From: Candidatus Zixiibacteriota bacterium
GTDB lineage: Bacteria; Zixibacteria; MSB-5A5; GN15; FEB-12
Direction: 5' to 3'
Length of the DNA: 64,000 nucleotides
Assembly: GCA_024280215.1 (NCBI GenBank)
Contig: JAJRQO010000018.1
Coordinates: 1-64,000 of the forward strand
The position numbers were made by a program, and so were the translations under genes. The notes beneath the pieces are model-generated. The model saw only the letters and a list, made by a program, of their open reading frames with translations. It ran no database searches and had not been told where the DNA came from. This document shows, one piece after another, positions 23,532-30,947 of the stretch; within the stretch, counting starts at the first letter, position 1, and the number at the start of each line of letters is the position of its first letter.

Positions 23532-23603
23532 TAAGAAGAAAGGTATATCTCATATTTATTGAGAGGTATAATAACTAAGGCTAAAAAAAAGAATATACAA
23601 CTT

Positions 23604-25355
23604 ATGCCAGAAAATAAGTCCTTAAGTGCAAGTGGTTCTTTACCTGTTGATGTCTTTGCTGATTTAGAAGCAACTTTAGAAGAAGTAGCTGAATCAAATC
23701 CACGCATAAATTCATCTGAAGCAGGCAATAAACACTCAGAAGATTTACGAGCAATTTTAGAAGCGACACTTGCGATTAATTCATCTATGGACACAGATGA
23801 TATTTTAAATATCGTGATGACAAAAGCAATTGAATTGATGACCGCAGAGCGTGGACTCATTATGCTTTTAGATGAAAAAAAAGAACTACAGGTAAAATCA
23901 GCTTATAATATTGAGCGTGAAAATATGACTCCTGAAGAGTTAAAAATTTCATCTTCAATAGCGAAACAAGTTGTTAATACTGCAAAAGCTGTTTACACCT
24001 CTGACGCTCTTTCTGATGAACGTTACGCTAATAAACAGTCAGTAGTTGAATTGCATTTACGTTCAATTTTATGTGTTCCATTGAATATTAAAGATGAATT
24101 AGTTGGAGTTATCTATCTAGATAATTCTTCTCAATCAAAAATGTTCTTGAAATCAGATTTATATCTATTTGAATTGTATGCACAAATGGTTTCAAATGCA
24201 TTAGAGAATGCTAAAATTTATAAATCTATTTATCAGTTAGAACGTTACAATGACTCAGTAATTAAGAAATCTCCTGTCGGTATAATTGTAATCGATCCAA
24301 AATGTCAAATTGCAACAATTAATGCAATCAGTTTAGAAATATTTGATATAAATAAAGATGATATCACAACAATTAAAGATACTAATACACCAACAAATTT
24401 CATAGATATTCTTCCAGAGAAAGAAAAAGCTCGCTGGAGATATATGATTAACTCAACTCTTGCTACTAAAGAAGAGTTTTCAAATGACAGATATTTCCAT
24501 AATACCAGTTATGTAGAAAAAGTACTCTCTCTAAAGATTTCTCCAATCGAACAACTTACAAATGGTTCCGATGGTCTAATTATGACTGTTGAAGATATTA
24601 CTGATAAAGTTCTGATGGAAAAATATGTAATTCTTTCAGAAAAGTTAGTAGCCAAAGGCGAAATGGCTGCATCTATAGCTCATGAGTTGAATAATTATTT
24701 AGCAATTGCCTCAAACAATGCTGAGCTACTTAATATAAACATCGAACGTGGTAAATTTGACAAAGTTCAGTTTAATAGCAAATCAATCGTTGATAATATT
24801 TTTAAGATTAAAAGATTTGTTGATTCGTTAATGGATTTTTCAAAGCCTCAAACAGAATTTATAAATTACGATATAAAACATCTCATTGAAGATTTACTTT
24901 TTTCACTAAGAATTCAACCACGATTTAAGCAGACACATTTTACTATCGATTTGTCGCAGGAAATTCCAAATGTCGAAATTGATGTAGGACTTATTCAGCA
25001 AGTATTCATGAACTTGCTCAACAATGCAGCAGATGCAATCGAAGAAAAAGTTATTTCACATGAGAATAATGATGAAAAAGTAAATAAAGAAATTTCCATA
25101 GTCTCATCTTATGACACAGAAATGAATGCTGTCAAAATTTCTATATCCGATACAGGCATAGGTATGACTCCAGAAATTTTAGAAAAGTTATACACAAAAC
25201 ATTTCACGACGAAAAAATCAGGTCATGGTTTGGGCTTAGCAAATTGTAAAAATATAATTGAACAACATAATGGCAAATTAGTAGTAGAGTCAATTTTGGG
25301 AAAAGGCACAACTTTCCATATCACTTTACCGCGTACGAATAAAAACTCTGAGTAA
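23604..25355 (+). CDS. Sensor histidine kinase with GAF and PAS domains
   Basis: 583 residues, no membrane segment. GAF domain at about 45-215 (IELMTAERGLIMLLDEKKEL, VPLNIKDELVGVIYLDNSS). PAS-like domain at about 230-340 (VIKKSPVGIIVIDPKCQIAT). HisKA with phospho-acceptor His near residue 360 (GEMAASIAHELNNYLAIASN). HATPase with N-box QVFMNLLNNAADAI, G1 DTGIGMTPE and GHGLGLANCKNI. ATG 23604 is the first good start; a TTG at 23559 would add 15 residues, and neither has a strong ribosome site. The next gene starts 6 bases after its stop, so this cytoplasmic sensor and the Ser/Thr kinase are probably made together. Confidence 0.88.
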   Translation: MPENKSLSASGSLPVDVFADLEATLEEVAESNPRINSSEAGNKHSEDLRAILEATLAINSSMDTDDILNIVMTKAIELMTAERGLIMLLDEKKELQVKSAYNIERENMTPEELKISSSIAKQVVNTAKAVYTSDALSDERYANKQSVVELHLRSILCVPLNIKDELVGVIYLDNSSQSKMFLKSDLYLFELYAQMVSNALENAKIYKSIYQLERYNDSVIKKSPVGIIVIDPKCQIATINAISLEIFDINKDDITTIKDTNTPTNFIDILPEKEKARWRYMINSTLATKEEFSNDRYFHNTSYVEKVLSLKISPIEQLTNGSDGLIMTVEDITDKVLMEKYVILSEKLVAKGEMAASIAHELNNYLAIASNNAELLNINIERGKFDKVQFNSKSIVDNIFKIKRFVDSLMDFSKPQTEFINYDIKHLIEDLLFSLRIQPRFKQTHFTIDLSQEIPNVEIDVGLIQQVFMNLLNNAADAIEEKVISHENNDEKVNKEISIVSSYDTEMNAVKISISDTGIGMTPEILEKLYTKHFTTKKSGHGLGLANCKNIIEQHNGKLVVESILGKGTTFHITLPRTNKNSE

Positions 25356-25361
25356 ACAAAT

Positions 25362-28301
25362 ATGAGAATGGCAAAAGAACTGCCACAATTTGAATTCTTG
25401 GGGAAATTGGGTGTTGGAGGTACAGCCCAGGTTCACAAAGTTCGGACAGTACAACATCAAATTGCCGCCTTAAAGACTATACTTCATTCCGACAATATAA
25501 ATCAAGAAGAGTTCAAACTACTCGCTATTCGTGAACAACATCTACTTCAAGATATAAATTTCCCTGGTATCGTAAAAATCTATGATGTGCAAACAGAAGA
25601 GCCTTGTTATATATGCCTGGAATATTGTAGCGGGAACACATTGGAGACATACCATAAGATTGACAATTTACAGTCAGCTCTTAATATTTTGTCTTCTATA
25701 GCTATAAATCTTGAATTTCTCAATCTGAATTCACTTGTGCATGCGGATCTGAAACCTGATAATATTTTTATGCCTGAAGATATTACACTCTTTGCAACAG
25801 ACAAATTAACCTTCACAAAGCTATCAGACTTTTCTTTAGGTAAGTTTGAAGAAGAGGAACATTCCGTACGTGGTGGACTTGGAACTGTTGGTTATATGGC
25901 TCCTGAGACAATAAAAGAGAACATTGTTTCTCATCGTTCTGATTTATTTGCTTTTGGTGTTTTAGCATATCAAATGATAACAGGAGTGCATCCTTTTATT
26001 TCTGAAGATGCTGATCCGATGAAAATCAATAGCCGTATACTTGAAGAAACTCCTCCTCCTCTTTCAGATTTACGAAATGATCTACCAGATAAGTTCATAC
26101 AATTAATCAATCAACTAATGGAAAAAGACGCATCAAAACGTCCAAGTTCTGCTTGGGAAGTTTGCCAGACTCTTCGTCTTGCTGGGGCAACATATCCATT
26201 TGAAAAAGTTTTACATCCTAAATACGCTCTTAAATCACAAAAAGATTATATCTATAATTTAAAAGTTATCTCAAACAATCATGAAATAATTAATCGAGAC
26301 TCAAACCAAGACAATTCTCAATTGCGATTATTGTTAAGTTATAATTTTGATAAAAATAATTTGTATTATTCAGAGAGACAGTTTCACTTTAAAGATAACC
26401 CATTAGTCGCATCTTATTTATTCAGACAAACAATAAAACAATTTTTAAAATTGTCATATACAGAAAAAAAATCAATTATTGAATTATCATTGATTAACAA
26501 TGAACAAAATTTAGTTTCATCTCTTCTTCCTCATTTATTAAAACCTCAAACAGTTATAAGAACCTCAAAAAGATTAGCATCAGTAGCAGAAAGTGATAAC
26601 AAACATTATATCGCTGCTAATTTATATACACAAAGCGGCGAATTATTAAAAGCAGAAAACGCAGCATATCAGGCTGCTATGAGTTATAAGAATAAAAATG
26701 AAATAGATTCTGCTCTTAAACTACTCAACAGAGTAATTTCATTTGGTACTCTCTTAAACAGAAAGTTTGATATTAAATCCTTGATAATGGTCAAAGGAGA
26801 TATATTAAAAGATATTGGTGAAACAAGTAAAGCTGAAGAAGTGTATCGTAATCTAATAGATATTTATGGAGGGCAAAATGAGGACGAACTTCTTGCTGAG
26901 ACATATAAAGATTTGGGCGATTTATATAAAATAAAAAAGTTGCCAAATGAGGGAATTAAATCATTAAAAAAAGCCTTAGGAATTTATAAAAGAATTGGAA
27001 ATAAATTAGAGGTATCTAAAACCTACAACAATCTTGGTAATATATACATGATTGAAAACAGTTTAAAAACAGCTCTATCTTATTATCGTAAAGCATTAAA
27101 AGTACAAAGAAAACTTATAGCTCATGAAGAAGTAGCCTCGACATTAAATAATATAGCGGTCGTTTATGGTATGACTAACAAGTTTAAAAAGGCTCTCAAG
27201 ATATTTACAATATCCTTAACAATAAAAAAAGAGATTGGCAATAAAGGTGAAATAGCCCGAACATTAAATAATATAGGATACTGTTACGAAATAATAGGTG
27301 ATGCTCGAAATGCTGCTGAAGTTTTACACGAAGCCATGAGGTATAACAAAGAGATTGATAGTAAAGGTGAACTACTTTTCAATTTAGAAAACTTAACTGT
27401 CTTAATGTATTCAACCGGACAACTTAAAGAGTCAATTTCGTATCTTAAAGAAGGTATAAATTTAGCAATTGCTTTAAATAATAAACCTCATACAAGTATA
27501 TTCAGTCTTTATTTAGGTGCTGTTTTTATTCGTTTAGGTAAATTAACAGAAGGATTCAAACAATTTGAGTATGCTGAAAATATTTTAAAAACAATAGAAG
27601 ATAAATATTTATTAGCTCTTTTATATATAGAAAAGGCTCAGTTAGCAACTCTAATTAACAACAAACAGGACACTGTTAAATTACTTAATCTCGCTCATGC
27701 TATTTATAGTGATATAAAAGATAAAACTATACTAATCAAAGTAGTTTTGCTGAAGTTAACAATTTCCAATGACATTACACTCCAGCATGAAGCAGAGAAA
27801 ATTATTGACGAATTAAAATTAAAAAAAGAAAAATCAATTTTAAATGAACTGAAACTAAATCATTTCCTTTCTCATGACAGTTCTTTTGCAACACAGCAAC
27901 CATATAACGACCTTAAAAAATCTACATCTGCTTCAAATGAACATATTGATCAATGCCAATTTTTAACTACCTTAGCAAAATACGAACTCTCAAATAACAA
28001 CATTGCAAGAGCTTCTGAATTAGCAAACAAATCTATACAATTAGCTAAATCACGTGGGCTTGTATTTGATCATTTTCATGCTTTGGTTTTGTTGGGCGGA
28101 ATATTGAGAAACCAAAACGAATTAGAAAATTGTTATGCTGTTTATAAACAAGCATTTCAGATTGCTAAAGATATTTTTAATCAGTTAGAAAACGATGTCG
28201 ACAAGCAAGCATTTCAAAATAAAAAAGAGTTTATATACTTAGTTTCAGAGATTAAAAAGTTGTCAAAATTGATTGGACAAAAAAAAGAGCAGGTGTCATA
28301 G
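25362..28301 (+). CDS. Serine/threonine protein kinase with C-terminal TPR array
   Basis: 979 residues. Kinase domain at 1-270: glycine loop GKLGVGGTAQVHKV, AALK lysine, catalytic loop VHADLKPDNIF near 126 (Ala where most have Arg, so a non-RD type), metal motif DFS in place of DFG, activation-segment GTVGYMAPE, and HRSDLFAFGVLAYQMITG. The remaining 700 residues are helical repeats with clear TPR units (AKTYNNLGNIYMIENSLKTA-like, repeated about every 40 residues between 500 and 720). No membrane span is seen. It probably integrates protein-protein signals through the TPRs; the upstream histidine kinase is a likely partner. The 3' end overlaps a bidirectional terminator hairpin. Confidence 0.87.
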   Translation: MRMAKELPQFEFLGKLGVGGTAQVHKVRTVQHQIAALKTILHSDNINQEEFKLLAIREQHLLQDINFPGIVKIYDVQTEEPCYICLEYCSGNTLETYHKIDNLQSALNILSSIAINLEFLNLNSLVHADLKPDNIFMPEDITLFATDKLTFTKLSDFSLGKFEEEEHSVRGGLGTVGYMAPETIKENIVSHRSDLFAFGVLAYQMITGVHPFISEDADPMKINSRILEETPPPLSDLRNDLPDKFIQLINQLMEKDASKRPSSAWEVCQTLRLAGATYPFEKVLHPKYALKSQKDYIYNLKVISNNHEIINRDSNQDNSQLRLLLSYNFDKNNLYYSERQFHFKDNPLVASYLFRQTIKQFLKLSYTEKKSIIELSLINNEQNLVSSLLPHLLKPQTVIRTSKRLASVAESDNKHYIAANLYTQSGELLKAENAAYQAAMSYKNKNEIDSALKLLNRVISFGTLLNRKFDIKSLIMVKGDILKDIGETSKAEEVYRNLIDIYGGQNEDELLAETYKDLGDLYKIKKLPNEGIKSLKKALGIYKRIGNKLEVSKTYNNLGNIYMIENSLKTALSYYRKALKVQRKLIAHEEVASTLNNIAVVYGMTNKFKKALKIFTISLTIKKEIGNKGEIARTLNNIGYCYEIIGDARNAAEVLHEAMRYNKEIDSKGELLFNLENLTVLMYSTGQLKESISYLKEGINLAIALNNKPHTSIFSLYLGAVFIRLGKLTEGFKQFEYAENILKTIEDKYLLALLYIEKAQLATLINNKQDTVKLLNLAHAIYSDIKDKTILIKVVLLKLTISNDITLQHEAEKIIDELKLKKEKSILNELKLNHFLSHDSSFATQQPYNDLKKSTSASNEHIDQCQFLTTLAKYELSNNNIARASELANKSIQLAKSRGLVFDHFHALVLLGGILRNQNELENCYAVYKQAFQIAKDIFNQLENDVDKQAFQNKKEFIYLVSEIKKLSKLIGQKKEQVS

Positions 28302-28312
28302 ACCTGCTCTTT
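28284..28312. terminator. Bidirectional terminator at the kinase 3' end / peptide gene end
   Basis: Perfect 11-bp stem, AAAGAGCAGGT (28284-28294) with ACCTGCTCTTT (28302-28312) and a 7-base loop. On the minus strand it is followed by six T, a classic terminator 32 bases after the stop of the 24-codon ORF. On the plus strand the stem spans the kinase stop codon and the T run is short. Confidence 0.8.
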
Positions 28313-28343
28313 CAAAAAATAATTAAGTATTACTTTTTAATGA

Positions 28344-28418
28344 TTATTGACCACCACTAGACATGCGTGGAGCAATACGATCTTCGAGTTTTTCGATTGT
28401 CAATGTGTAATTTGTCAT
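28344..28418 (-). CDS. 24-residue peptide, putative substrate of the neighbouring PqqD-M50-HlyD protein
   Basis: Twenty-four codons ending in TAA. The sequence reads MTNYTLTIEKLEDRIAP and then RMSSGGQ. The ribosome site is exceptional: TTAGGAGGTGAT ends 4 bases before the ATG, with GGAGG at 7-base spacing, almost the full complement of a 16S 3' end. It lies in the loop of a 7-bp hairpin (AAATCAC / GTGATTT, 28420-28440). A promoter-like TTGACG-N16-TATTTT lies 84 bases upstream, and a strong terminator lies 32 bases downstream. The adjacent upstream minus-strand gene encodes a peptide-protease/exporter fusion, so this is probably a secreted or matured peptide. No database family is known to me; the LEDRIAP string resembles N-terminal LEDR-x-P motifs of some planctomycete surface proteins. 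Confidence 0.7.
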   Translation of the reverse strand: MTNYTLTIEKLEDRIAPRMSSGGQ

Positions 28419-28419
28419 G

Positions 28420-28440
28420 AAATCACCTCCTAAGTGATTT
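28420..28440 (-). promoter_or_regulatory. Shine-Dalgarno hairpin of the peptide gene
   Basis: On the minus strand AAATCAC-TTAGGAG-GTGATTT forms a 7-bp stem that presents AGGAG in its loop, ending one base before the ATG-proximal C. It could gate or promote very efficient initiation. Confidence 0.55.
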
Positions 28441-28501
28441 ATAGGCTAAATGTACCTTCCTATGGTGAAAGGGCTGTCATGTTTATCCAAAAGGATACTA
28501 T

Positions 28502-28529
28502 AAAATATCACAAAATTCTATTACGTCAA
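28502..28529 (-). promoter_or_regulatory. Candidate promoter of the peptide gene
   Basis: Minus strand: -35 TTGACG (28529-28524), 16-base spacer, -10 TATTTT (28507-28502). The start near 28495 gives a leader of about 77 bases, which includes a small tatcc/ggata hairpin at 28484-28497. Confidence 0.45.
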
Positions 28530-28634
28530 GTAGTTAATGGTGTTGATTAGTCTACAATTTTCGAATAATGCACAAAAACCAACTTTAAACATACAAGAAT
28601 GCGACTCAACGGAAATATTTTCCTATGAAATAAT

Positions 28635-30947
28635 TTACCACATTGCCCAAAATTCAACCCGAATTATTGATGCGATGCGATGAATTATTAAATTATACAA
28701 AGATGTCCTACCAATTTCAATTTTCGCATAGCCTGTCATTCCTTTGCGAAGTATATCATTTTTATTTTCAATAACGACAGAAACATTAAAAGATGCTTTG
28801 TCATTCGCATCAACAATCGCATCACGAGGTATATGCACCACTTTACCCGAGAATACTTTTGTTGTATATGAACGTACTTTAATTTTAACCTCTTGGTTTA
28901 ATTTTAGCAAATCAATATCAAAATCTGAGACAGGTACTAACACTTCAACAGAGCTATTATCTAAGACCGATAAAAATTGAGAGTTATTTTGATTTATCAT
29001 TACCGTACCAGGTATGGTAGAAATTATAGACTGGGCATCTTTTTGTGTTTGTAAAAATATAAGTTTTGCGTTTTGTTTTTCTATTTGAGAAAGTATGACT
29101 GCTTCTTCTTCAGGTTTAGGAGGAGATTTCAAAAGCGAAAGTGTAGCTTTTTTATTTTGCAAGTCTGCTTTAGCAATTGCAGTTTCTGAAAATGCAGCTT
29201 CATACAAATCATTAGAAATAAGTTTTTTATCAACTAATTCTTTGAGACGTTTCTCATCACGAACTTTTTGTTCATGGACAGCTTTTGACGATGCAACGGC
29301 TGCTTCTGCTTCAAGGATTGCTTCTTTTTTCGGTGGTGATCTTAGAAGTGCTAAATCGGATTGGAGTTGTTCTAAAACAGAACCCTCTGAATCAATTTCT
29401 CTTGTGACTTGATTTGAGACAAGCACCGCAAGAGTATCGCCGATAGCTATGTGTTGTCCATCACGCACATACGGGATTAAATCTAAGGAACCAAGTTCGA
29501 GTGATGCCATTTGTATATAGCTTGTTTTTAATTTGGATTCAGCTCCACCCTGTTGAAACTTTTTCTCAAGCAAACCGAGTTCATTCAAAAGCAATGAGTA
29601 CTCAGCAATAGGTTCAATTTTTATTTCTCCAGAGACTCGTTGTTTCATCGGGACAAAAAACAAAACGATTATCAACAGAGCCATAACAACAATATAACTG
29701 ACAAGACGAAATGGTTTTTTCATAATATCCTTTAAATATTTAATATGCGTCACTAAACCGTTTGCTAATGCTTTGAAATTTTTTCGCATCGCAAACATCA
29801 AAAAGAGATATAGTAAAATTAAACCGATTGTACCCGTTTTTTCAAGCAAAAAGGAAGATAAAATAGAAAGAAAAAATATAATGATAAATAGTGTATATAC
29901 AGCCGCTAAAGTAGCATAAATTACATAAATACGTCGTTTTCTCTTGTCTACATCTATTTTTTCAATTGGCCAGCCAAGGACAATGCGTTTAAATAAGTTG
30001 CTGACATAATTAAATGACTTATCACGTAAGTTAGGAATTTCTAAAAAGTCAGAAAGCAGGTAGTACCCGTCGAGTTTAATTAGTGGGTTTAAATTAAAAA
30101 TTGCTGTGACCCATATAACTATAACTAAAATTTGTGAAATTTCATGTATAAATGATCCCGGGATTGTTAAACGCCAAATAATCATCGTAAATGCGAGTAG
30201 AATTATTTCAGAATATGGCCCCGCCCATGTAACTGCTAAACGGTGACTTTTTTTCTTGAACAACCAAGCATCAGAAATATCACAATAAAAACAGGGTTGG
30301 AAGTACATCAACAAAAACCCAAATTCGTTGACCTCTCCTCCGTATATACGACACATTATCGAATGAGCAAATTCATGTATGACAATCAAAACAAAAAATG
30401 CTGTCATGACTGTTACAATTGCACTTGCTGAATATAAATCAAAAAGAGAAACCGCAAAATTAGTATAGTTGTTAGCAAAAAGAATCAATCCAAAAGAGAT
30501 AAAAAGAAACTGTAGAAATAAACCAATTGGAGAATGAAAAGGTTTATATATTTTAGTACAGACATCCAAAGTTTTGCCAGGCTTGAACGCTTTGAATTTA
30601 ATGAATAAGAGTTTTGAGAAAAGTGATTTTCTTTTTTCATTACCGTAACTCTTTCGAGTTGTCGCTTGTTCGGAACGACTGTTCTCTAAGAAATATTGTG
30701 ACTCTAACAGCTCAACAAATTGCAGTACTGCCTTTGCGTCGATATTTGCATTAAATTTTTGACGAAATTTTTGTGCGATAGCATCGTATGATGTCACCCC
30801 ATCAAGTTGTGATATTAACCAAAACTCTGGAGCACGAAGCCTGAAATAATTTCCACGAATAGGGTCTTTGATATTAACAACATCGACTCCATCAACGACT
30901 GCATCGGACGTTACTAAATCATTCCGTAATTTAGCATAAGTTTCCAT
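28635..30947 (-). CDS. PqqD-M50 metalloprotease-HlyD fusion (peptide zinc metalloprotease/exporter-like)
   Basis: 770 residues in three parts. Residues 15-90 resemble a PqqD/RiPP-recognition domain (DPIRGNYFRLRAPEFWLISQLDG). Residues 135-430 are a polytopic M50 site-2-type protease with HEFAH at 191-195 and the second metal motif NPLIKLDG at 287-294. Residues 425-750 are a membrane-anchored HlyD-like adaptor with a long coiled coil, lipoyl-like halves and a beta-barrel end (GSVLEQLQSDLALLRSPP, LNQEVKIKVRSYTTKVFSG). The layout resembles YydH-type 'putative peptide zinc metalloproteases' that act on RiPP precursors. No radical SAM or ABC transporter is adjacent. The likely substrate is the 24-residue peptide encoded 216 bases downstream on the same strand. 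Confidence 0.8.
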   Translation of the reverse strand: METYAKLRNDLVTSDAVVDGVDVVNIKDPIRGNYFRLRAPEFWLISQLDGVTSYDAIAQKFRQKFNANIDAKAVLQFVELLESQYFLENSRSEQATTRKSYGNEKRKSLFSKLLFIKFKAFKPGKTLDVCTKIYKPFHSPIGLFLQFLFISFGLILFANNYTNFAVSLFDLYSASAIVTVMTAFFVLIVIHEFAHSIMCRIYGGEVNEFGFLLMYFQPCFYCDISDAWLFKKKSHRLAVTWAGPYSEIILLAFTMIIWRLTIPGSFIHEISQILVIVIWVTAIFNLNPLIKLDGYYLLSDFLEIPNLRDKSFNYVSNLFKRIVLGWPIEKIDVDKRKRRIYVIYATLAAVYTLFIIIFFLSILSSFLLEKTGTIGLILLYLFLMFAMRKNFKALANGLVTHIKYLKDIMKKPFRLVSYIVVMALLIIVLFFVPMKQRVSGEIKIEPIAEYSLLLNELGLLEKKFQQGGAESKLKTSYIQMASLELGSLDLIPYVRDGQHIAIGDTLAVLVSNQVTREIDSEGSVLEQLQSDLALLRSPPKKEAILEAEAAVASSKAVHEQKVRDEKRLKELVDKKLISNDLYEAAFSETAIAKADLQNKKATLSLLKSPPKPEEEAVILSQIEKQNAKLIFLQTQKDAQSIISTIPGTVMINQNNSQFLSVLDNSSVEVLVPVSDFDIDLLKLNQEVKIKVRSYTTKVFSGKVVHIPRDAIVDANDKASFNVSVVIENKNDILRKGMTGYAKIEIGRTSLYNLIIHRIASIIRVEFWAMW

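Follow-up and report, generated by a model that had tools for sequence, protein, structure and literature searches.

The window analysed here, i.e. the whole stretch of 64,000 nucleotides from a Candidatus Zixiibacteriota bacterium (GCA_024280215.1, contig JAJRQO010000018.1, positions 1 to 64,000, forward strand), harbors a gene of just 24 codons that lies immediately downstream of, and on the same strand as, the gene for a large fusion protein. The latter combines an N-terminal domain predicted to fold as a RiPP recognition element (RRE, PqqD-like), an M50 (site-2) protease and a HlyD/MacA-type adaptor. Convergent with the small gene is a gene for a Ser/Thr kinase-TPR protein, preceded by a histidine kinase gene (Table 1). 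In the window alone, the matches to a promoter and a terminator are no better than chance, so that comparison across relatives was required. The phylum, Zixibacteria, is uncultured, and was surveyed in 132 genomes, mostly metagenome assemblies; the comparison sets comprised 63 distinct peptides, 56 distinct fusion-peptide intergenic regions and 71 homologues of the fusion.

Table 1. Features of the peptide locus, with their positions in the window and the evidence for each.
Feature	Position	Strand	Evidence
24-codon gene of the predicted precursor peptide, MTNYTLTIEKLEDRIAPRMSSGGQ	28344..28418	-	translation, homologues, pN/pS
Predicted leader M1-P17, TLTIEKLEDRIAP: L-12, I-10, E-9, L-7, E-6, R-4, I-3, A-2, P-1	28368..28418	-	position counts, daptide register
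Predicted core R18-Q24, RMSSGGQ	28347..28367	-	putative cut site, from daptide register
Shine-Dalgarno sequence AGGAGGTG	28424..28431	-	sequence; 5 nt before ATG
Promoter TTGACG-N16-TATTTT, for the peptide's own transcript	28502..28529	-	conservation; 5' leader about 75 nt
Palindrome GGAAATATTTTCC, candidate operator, between fusion stop and peptide promoter	28611..28623	.	conservation
Intrinsic terminator, 12-pair stem, common to the end of the convergent kinase gene	28283..28313	-	hairpin search, conservation
RRE-M50-HlyD fusion, 770 aa	28635..30947	-	family matches; AlphaFold2 mean pLDDT 85.3
Predicted RRE (PqqD-like) domain, residues 1-88, beta3-alpha3	30684..30947	-	predicted fold, PDB matches
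M50 site-2 protease membrane region; HEFAH 191-195, NPLIKLDG 287-294	29649..30530	-	PF02163, hydropathy, invariant residues
HlyD/MacA-type adaptor region, RVEFWSWW-like C-terminus	28638..29630	-	PDB sequence and fold matches
Convergent Ser/Thr kinase-TPR gene, 979 aa, no transmembrane segment	25362..28301	+	family matches, hydropathy, linkage
GAF-PAS-HisKA-HATPase histidine kinase gene, upstream of the kinase-TPR gene	23559..25355	+	family matches, linkage

An earlier reading of the sequence alone had taken the 24-codon frame for a genuine gene paired with the fusion, and both claims hold. A homologue of the peptide (profile, E<1e-3) is present in 104 of the 132 genomes and the fusion in 101: 97 genomes possess both genes, 24 neither, 4 the fusion only and 7 the peptide only (Fisher p 3e-16, with kinship between genomes ignored and incomplete genomes swelling both types of error in these counts). 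The two genes travel together even in those families where they are unlinked (33 genomes with both, 12 with neither, 3 with the fusion only and 4 with the peptide only; Fisher p 3e-6, kinship again ignored), so that their pairing is well supported. A first genome scan gave 14 homologous loci, 12 of which have a peptide with LExR[IV]AP just downstream of the fusion and on its strand; the remaining two are a locus cut short by the end of its contig and one in a distant Armatimonadota genome. The frame does not evolve as non-coding DNA: in the genera scored, selection on its codons is purifying, with a pN/pS of 0.11 in the window's genus and of 0.00, 0.14 and 0.18 in the others. When 45 peptides were compared with NCBIfam and Pfam, no family was matched, including any NCBIfam precursor model, and an Rfam scan of the window yielded no match.

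The expression signals that the same reading had assigned to the gene fared unevenly in the window and well among its relatives. The strong ribosome site is kept in 55 of the 56 intergenic regions. Promoter-like sites in the window number 15 against 19.8 expected by chance, and the terminator-like hairpin is the sole one in a 4.5 kb region, yet chance expects 1.6; across the intergenic regions, however, TTGACR-N16-18-TAnnnT is kept in 44 of 56 (0.5 expected from shuffles), and a hairpin with a T-run follows the peptide stop within 140 nt in 54 of 56. It is because of this conservation, and not of any score in the window, that we accept the promoter and the terminator as real. A further palindrome, GGAAN5TTCC, occurs in 26 of the 56 regions (0.24 expected), all 26 in the window's family, and might serve as an operator; as the mark of a genome-wide regulon it found no support away from the peptide locus, the genome containing 9 sites, most of them within genes. 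A structured 5' leader was not borne out either: over 10 sequences, the z values ranged from -2.8 to +0.6, without a consistent signal.

As for the fusion, its M50 and HlyD parts are recognized as had been proposed (PF02163, E 2e-6; HlyD, E 1e-5), whereas the proposed PqqD-like N-terminus is scarcely detectable by sequence in the window's protein (TIGR03859, E 0.08), being clear in an Armatimonadota homologue (PF05402, E 8e-6). With the AlphaFold2 model, built from 71 homologues, a search of the PDB gave adaptor proteins alone among the 50 matches listed, and residues 1-88 were therefore folded and searched separately. The seven best matches of this segment are all RREs (probability 1.00, TM 0.53-0.69), foremost TbiB1-leader complexes, PqqD (5sxy) and the lasso B1 protein (6jx3), with E-values that are modest (0.005-0.02), the domain being so small; the predicted fold of the N-terminus is thus that of an RRE. 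In the protease region, H191, E192, H195, N285, P288 and D293 are invariant across the 71 aligned homologues. The adaptor region matches EmrA and MacA in the PDB by sequence and MacA by fold, and throughout the phylum the last residues of the protein read RVEFWSWW or nearly so. Hydropathy indicates six segments, a count that speaks against a HlyD part located outside, since with the RRE inside it would leave both on one side of the membrane. Neither TolC nor an ATPase turned up as a partner of the Zixibacteria fusion and, as the sequence-only reading had remarked, there is neither a radical SAM enzyme nor an ABC transporter in the vicinity.

That reading went astray in considering LEDRIAP the core of the peptide. 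Counted from the proline, L-7, E-6 and P-1 are found in 63 of 63 distinct peptides, as is I, V or L at -10; L-12 and I, V or L at -3 occur in 62 each, A-2 and R or K at -4 in 61 each, and E-9 in 59. Since the LExRIAP block is near-invariant over these 63 sequences, its assignment to a leader, with the C-terminal tail as the core, appears well supported. The tail after the proline is 7 or 8 residues long in 44 of the 63 peptides and contains SxGG in 49; the cores are almost devoid of Cys, and none of the 63 ends in Thr. Neither does the view that the peptide resembles no known precursor family hold without amendment: the leader shares L(-7), E(-6), A(-2) and P(-1) with the ELExMEAP leader of daptides, the difference being at -4 (M in daptides, R or K here) and at -3 (E in daptides, I or V here). 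In daptide biosynthesis, the leader is removed by an RRE-site-2 protease, MpaP/DapP, with P(-1) as the last leader residue (Ren et al. 2023, PMC10036551), and L(-7) and M(-4) are essential if a second RRE protein in that pathway is to recognize the leader (PMC10036551). An Armatimonadota genome contains, along with a homologue of the fusion, a set of at least seven small ORFs in which EERIAP, or a sequence close to it, recurs; two of them read ELEERIAP. Both the common register with the daptide leader and these ORFs support a probable cut after Pro17, which would release RMSSGGQ.

The most constant neighbors of the peptide, which that reading had overlooked along with the phylum-wide spread and the relation to giant-protein operons described below, are the kinase-TPR gene and the histidine kinase gene. 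Of 20 loci with the fusion encoded elsewhere, 16 have the kinase-TPR gene tail to tail with the peptide gene, the GAF-PAS histidine kinase usually coming next; the convergent arrangement is also found in most of the fusion-linked loci. The histidine kinase was found in 6 of 6 peptide-bearing genomes checked, but, among 14 checked genomes without the peptide and the fusion, it is present in 7 and missing in 7, and a genus with multiple peptide copies has lost the kinase-TPR gene at the peptide site. Hence, the association of the kinases with the peptide is not a strict one, and their linkage could in part be inherited synteny. The block purF-kinase-DAO-ClC-fusion-peptide-kinase/TPR-histidine kinase-Omp85 is syntenic throughout the family, which indicates vertical inheritance and not a mobile cluster; the distribution of the locus is phylum-wide, non-mobile and housekeeping-like. 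The candidate receptors are of the Pkinase-TPR type, some with AAA_16, and show no HTH and no Rap match; by hydropathy, neither of the two kinases in the window has a transmembrane segment.

Taken together, these data make it fairly probable, in our judgment, that the locus encodes a peptide, probably unmodified, that is cleaved under the guidance of the RRE, probably exported via HlyD and used in signalling together with the kinases. Under this scenario, the 24-mer would be the precursor of a small, ribosomally made peptide, whose leader, YxLxxExLExRIAP, would be held by the RRE at the N-terminus of the fusion, while the membrane M50 protease of the same protein would cut after the proline at -1. 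The HlyD/MacA-like part, presumably in the periplasm, would then probably move the core outward together with an outer-membrane partner encoded elsewhere, and the cytoplasmic TPR kinase might read the peptide, be it as a core taken up again or as a precursor still inside the cell. That the core is fixed, that inheritance is vertical across the phylum and that the pair of kinases is constant suggests that the product is a signal and not a weapon. By association, a signalling role is favored both by the kinases and by the neighbors of the Armatimonadota ORFs, several of which adjoin genes for membrane GAF-GGDEF or GAF-PP2C sensors.

The near-constancy of the core would also be expected if the peptide were a binding partner, namely, a small regulatory subunit that switches the protease or the adaptor via the RRE and is itself neither cut nor exported, and the fusion may have further substrates. 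This we consider improbable, inasmuch as the near-invariant part resembles the leader that daptides cleave, one genus carries 2-7 tandem peptide copies (seven on one Zixibacteria chromosome) with altered cores such as SRYGAE and SRWGAD, and, in the Armatimonadota ORFs, the tails vary while the leader is constant: both are patterns of a precursor. Just as improbable appears a RiPP in the strict sense, with a core modified before cleavage by enzymes encoded elsewhere and a cofactor-like or antimicrobial product, as in the case of PQQ or mycofactocin. A fixed core recalls PqqA and MftA. Among the genes of the Armatimonadota cluster are one for a radical SAM enzyme and one for a methyltransferase, and RRE domains mostly serve modification enzymes (PMC12710340); however, no conserved modification gene lies beside the peptide or the fusion in the Zixibacteria loci compared, the core offers almost no Cys and no terminal Thr, and no mobile or variable cluster surrounds the peptide.

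Distant relatives of the fusion raise the question of other substrates. Its homologues on Pseudomonadota plasmids (<30% identity) mostly occur with TolC, an RND adaptor, HlyD and giant repeat proteins, one Azospirillum copy being without giant-protein and TolC neighbors. The annotated N-termini of 12 giant proteins were read; [LIF]ExR lies among the first 60 residues in 10 of them, where shuffled sequences would give 5%, and two of these 10 pass the LEPR-XLL model. The register of LHVEPIEPRILLSA against LTVEVLEARIAP, between the peptide and the N-termini of the giants, is suggestive. The peptide profile did not significantly match LEPR N-termini (best p 0.03-0.05), and none of the peptides of alignment A2 matched NF012209 (LEPR-XLL) at E<=1; homology of the two was not retained, and the link is thus drawn from the motif and the genomic context. 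These data could be taken to mean that the fusion chiefly secretes large LExR surface proteins of the LEPR-XLL type, with the 24-mer as a degenerate or decoy relic. Such a reading is highly unlikely, given that LEPR-XLL proteins occur in just 8 of the 132 Zixibacteria genomes, the window's own not being among them, that selection on the 24-mer is purifying in the scorable groups and that its profile does not significantly recognize the LEPR N-termini. As to a chance ORF, for which only the length of 24 codons speaks, it is refuted by conservation, namely by the phylum-wide homologues, the purifying selection and the kept promoter, ribosome site and terminator, and its probability is practically nil.

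A common LExR recognition logic between the peptide and the giant proteins can be hypothesized from their motifs and genomic context. It is conceivable, if somewhat doubtful, that RRE-M50-HlyD proteins constitute a broad, undescribed, ABC-free export route for LExR-marked substrates, comprising giant surface proteins in Pseudomonadota and motif-sized peptides in Zixibacteria and Armatimonadota that would signal to a TPR kinase, either between cells or for self-monitoring.

How does this system compare with those already described? In the literature searched, we found no earlier description of the peptide motif, PqqD-M50-HlyD, LEPR-XLL or Zixibacteria peptides, nor any peptide signal or precursor peptide for Zixibacteria; the precursor-processor pair, core to the phylum, is genuine and, in this sense, unreported. 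Epipeptides (YydF-YydGHIJ, PMC7026026) likewise combine a short precursor with a gene for an M50-type protease, but depend on an ABC transporter and on the radical SAM epimerase YydG, neither of which the peptide locus has. In Rgg-SHP with Eep (M50) and other RRNPP signalling systems (PMC7564271), a very short peptide is similarly matured by an M50 protease and a TPR reader is encoded nearby, a place that the convergent kinase-TPR gene, as a candidate reader, would occupy here. However, the window's kinase-TPR protein belongs to none of the RRNPP receptor families Rap, Rgg, NprR, PlcR and PrgX, its TPR is joined to a Ser/Thr kinase and not to a DNA-binding domain, and the phylum is Gram-negative; also unlike RRNPP, the protease is fused to the predicted RRE and HlyD, and there is no PptAB-type exporter. 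The LEPR-XLL (NF012209)/DUF4347 giants, whose operon is annotated but for whose function no publication was found in the literature searched, resemble the peptide in that a homologous PqqD-M50-HlyD gene lies beside a substrate with an N-terminal LExR. The giants, unlike the peptide with its LExRIAP, span thousands of residues and carry LExR-xLL/xFDxA, and their loci possess a TolC of their own and additional adaptors.

The closest parallel is provided by daptides, in which, as in the window's fusion, an N-terminal RRE is joined to an M50 protease. Specifically, the nearest NCBIfam model of the fusion is that of the daptide intramembrane metalloprotease (NF041824, E 6e-62), at 209.9 bits, below the curated cut-off of 300. 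Daptide loci also encode multiple precursors, as do some genomes with the Zixibacteria-type peptide. Daptides, however, have MpaB, C, D and M and an ABC transporter, no homologues of which lie beside the peptide or the fusion; the oxidative decarboxylase, DUF-RRE, aminotransferase and methyltransferase genes that accompany them are absent from the peptide neighborhoods compared, and their invariant C-terminal Thr is found in 0 of 63 peptide cores. Given the lack of the tailoring genes, the C-terminal Thr and the ABC transporter, the system is not a daptide one; in further distinction, the fusion carries HlyD, the core is fixed and polar, and the locus is a phylum-wide core locus and not a biosynthetic cluster. 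If the proposed scenario is right, it offers a defined precursor, a one-protein machine for maturation and export, and candidate receptors, each of which can be tested in E. coli, and the function of the LEPR-XLL signal becomes directly testable via the common motif. One recognition motif would then join daptide leader peptidases, LEPR-XLL giants and the 24-mer, which are unconnected in the literature searched; the present system is, on this view, a form of RRE-site-2-protease peptide processing with a fused adaptor and linked kinases.

Between the stop codon of the fusion gene, which encodes the PqqD-like-M50-HlyD protein, and the promoter of the peptide lies a perfect palindrome-like element, GGAAATATTTTCC. 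The motif GGAAN5TTCC was found in 26 of the 56 distinct fusion-peptide intergenic regions compared, its conservation being confined to the window's family, and a search of the rest of the genome gave no matching regulon. Within one genus, the peptide occurs in two to seven tandem copies with an altered core, SRYGAE or SRWGAD.

The fusion protein ends in RVEFWSWW or a near variant throughout the phylum, in the window and in all homologues there; the Armatimonadota homologue ends in YNVWSWFP, and a C-terminus of this type is absent from the Pseudomonadota homologues. In one close relative, the fusion gene is broken into two frames, owing to either a frameshift or an assembly error; the peptide is intact. 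The record for L006 (QQUK01000187.1), labelled Calditrichaeota, appears to represent the same locus as G057, which within the Zixibacteria set belongs to the genus of the window; the label is probably wrong.

Coordinates of the features (L numbers, homologous loci in other genomes)
Feature	Locus	Positions
Palindrome-like element	window	28611-28623
RVEFWSWW-type C-terminus	window	28635-28670
Tandem peptides	L007	8462-10171
Tandem peptides	L118, L031, L174	
Kinase-TPR gene with AAA_16	L166	6345-10073
Two-frame fusion gene	L005	6001-8311
Armatimonadota small ORFs	L017	5953-8682
Armatimonadota small ORFs	L186	
Pseudomonadota plasmid operons	L211, L213, L217, L218, L223, L228, L229, L232, L233	

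Seven or more small ORFs in an Armatimonadota genome (G132, contig C331) share an unvarying EERIAP-type leader, with tails terminating in FWR, WLWR or WYWR; intermixed with them are genes for membrane GAF-GGDEF and GAF-PP2C sensors, for a B12-type radical SAM protein and for a methyltransferase. The whole looks like a multi-signal cluster.

On Pseudomonadota plasmids, including E. coli IncHI1B, PqqD-M50-HlyD genes lie in operons mostly with TolC, an RND adaptor and HlyD, next to genes for giant repeat proteins that carry an LExR motif at the N-terminus. These operons are a candidate for an undescribed secretion route, one with no obvious ATPase.

The Ser/Thr kinase-TPR gene adjacent to the peptide has been lost in the genus with tandem peptide copies. 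The window's copy has no AAA_16 ATPase domain; in some families, this domain sits between kinase and TPR, a PknK/MalT-like arrangement.
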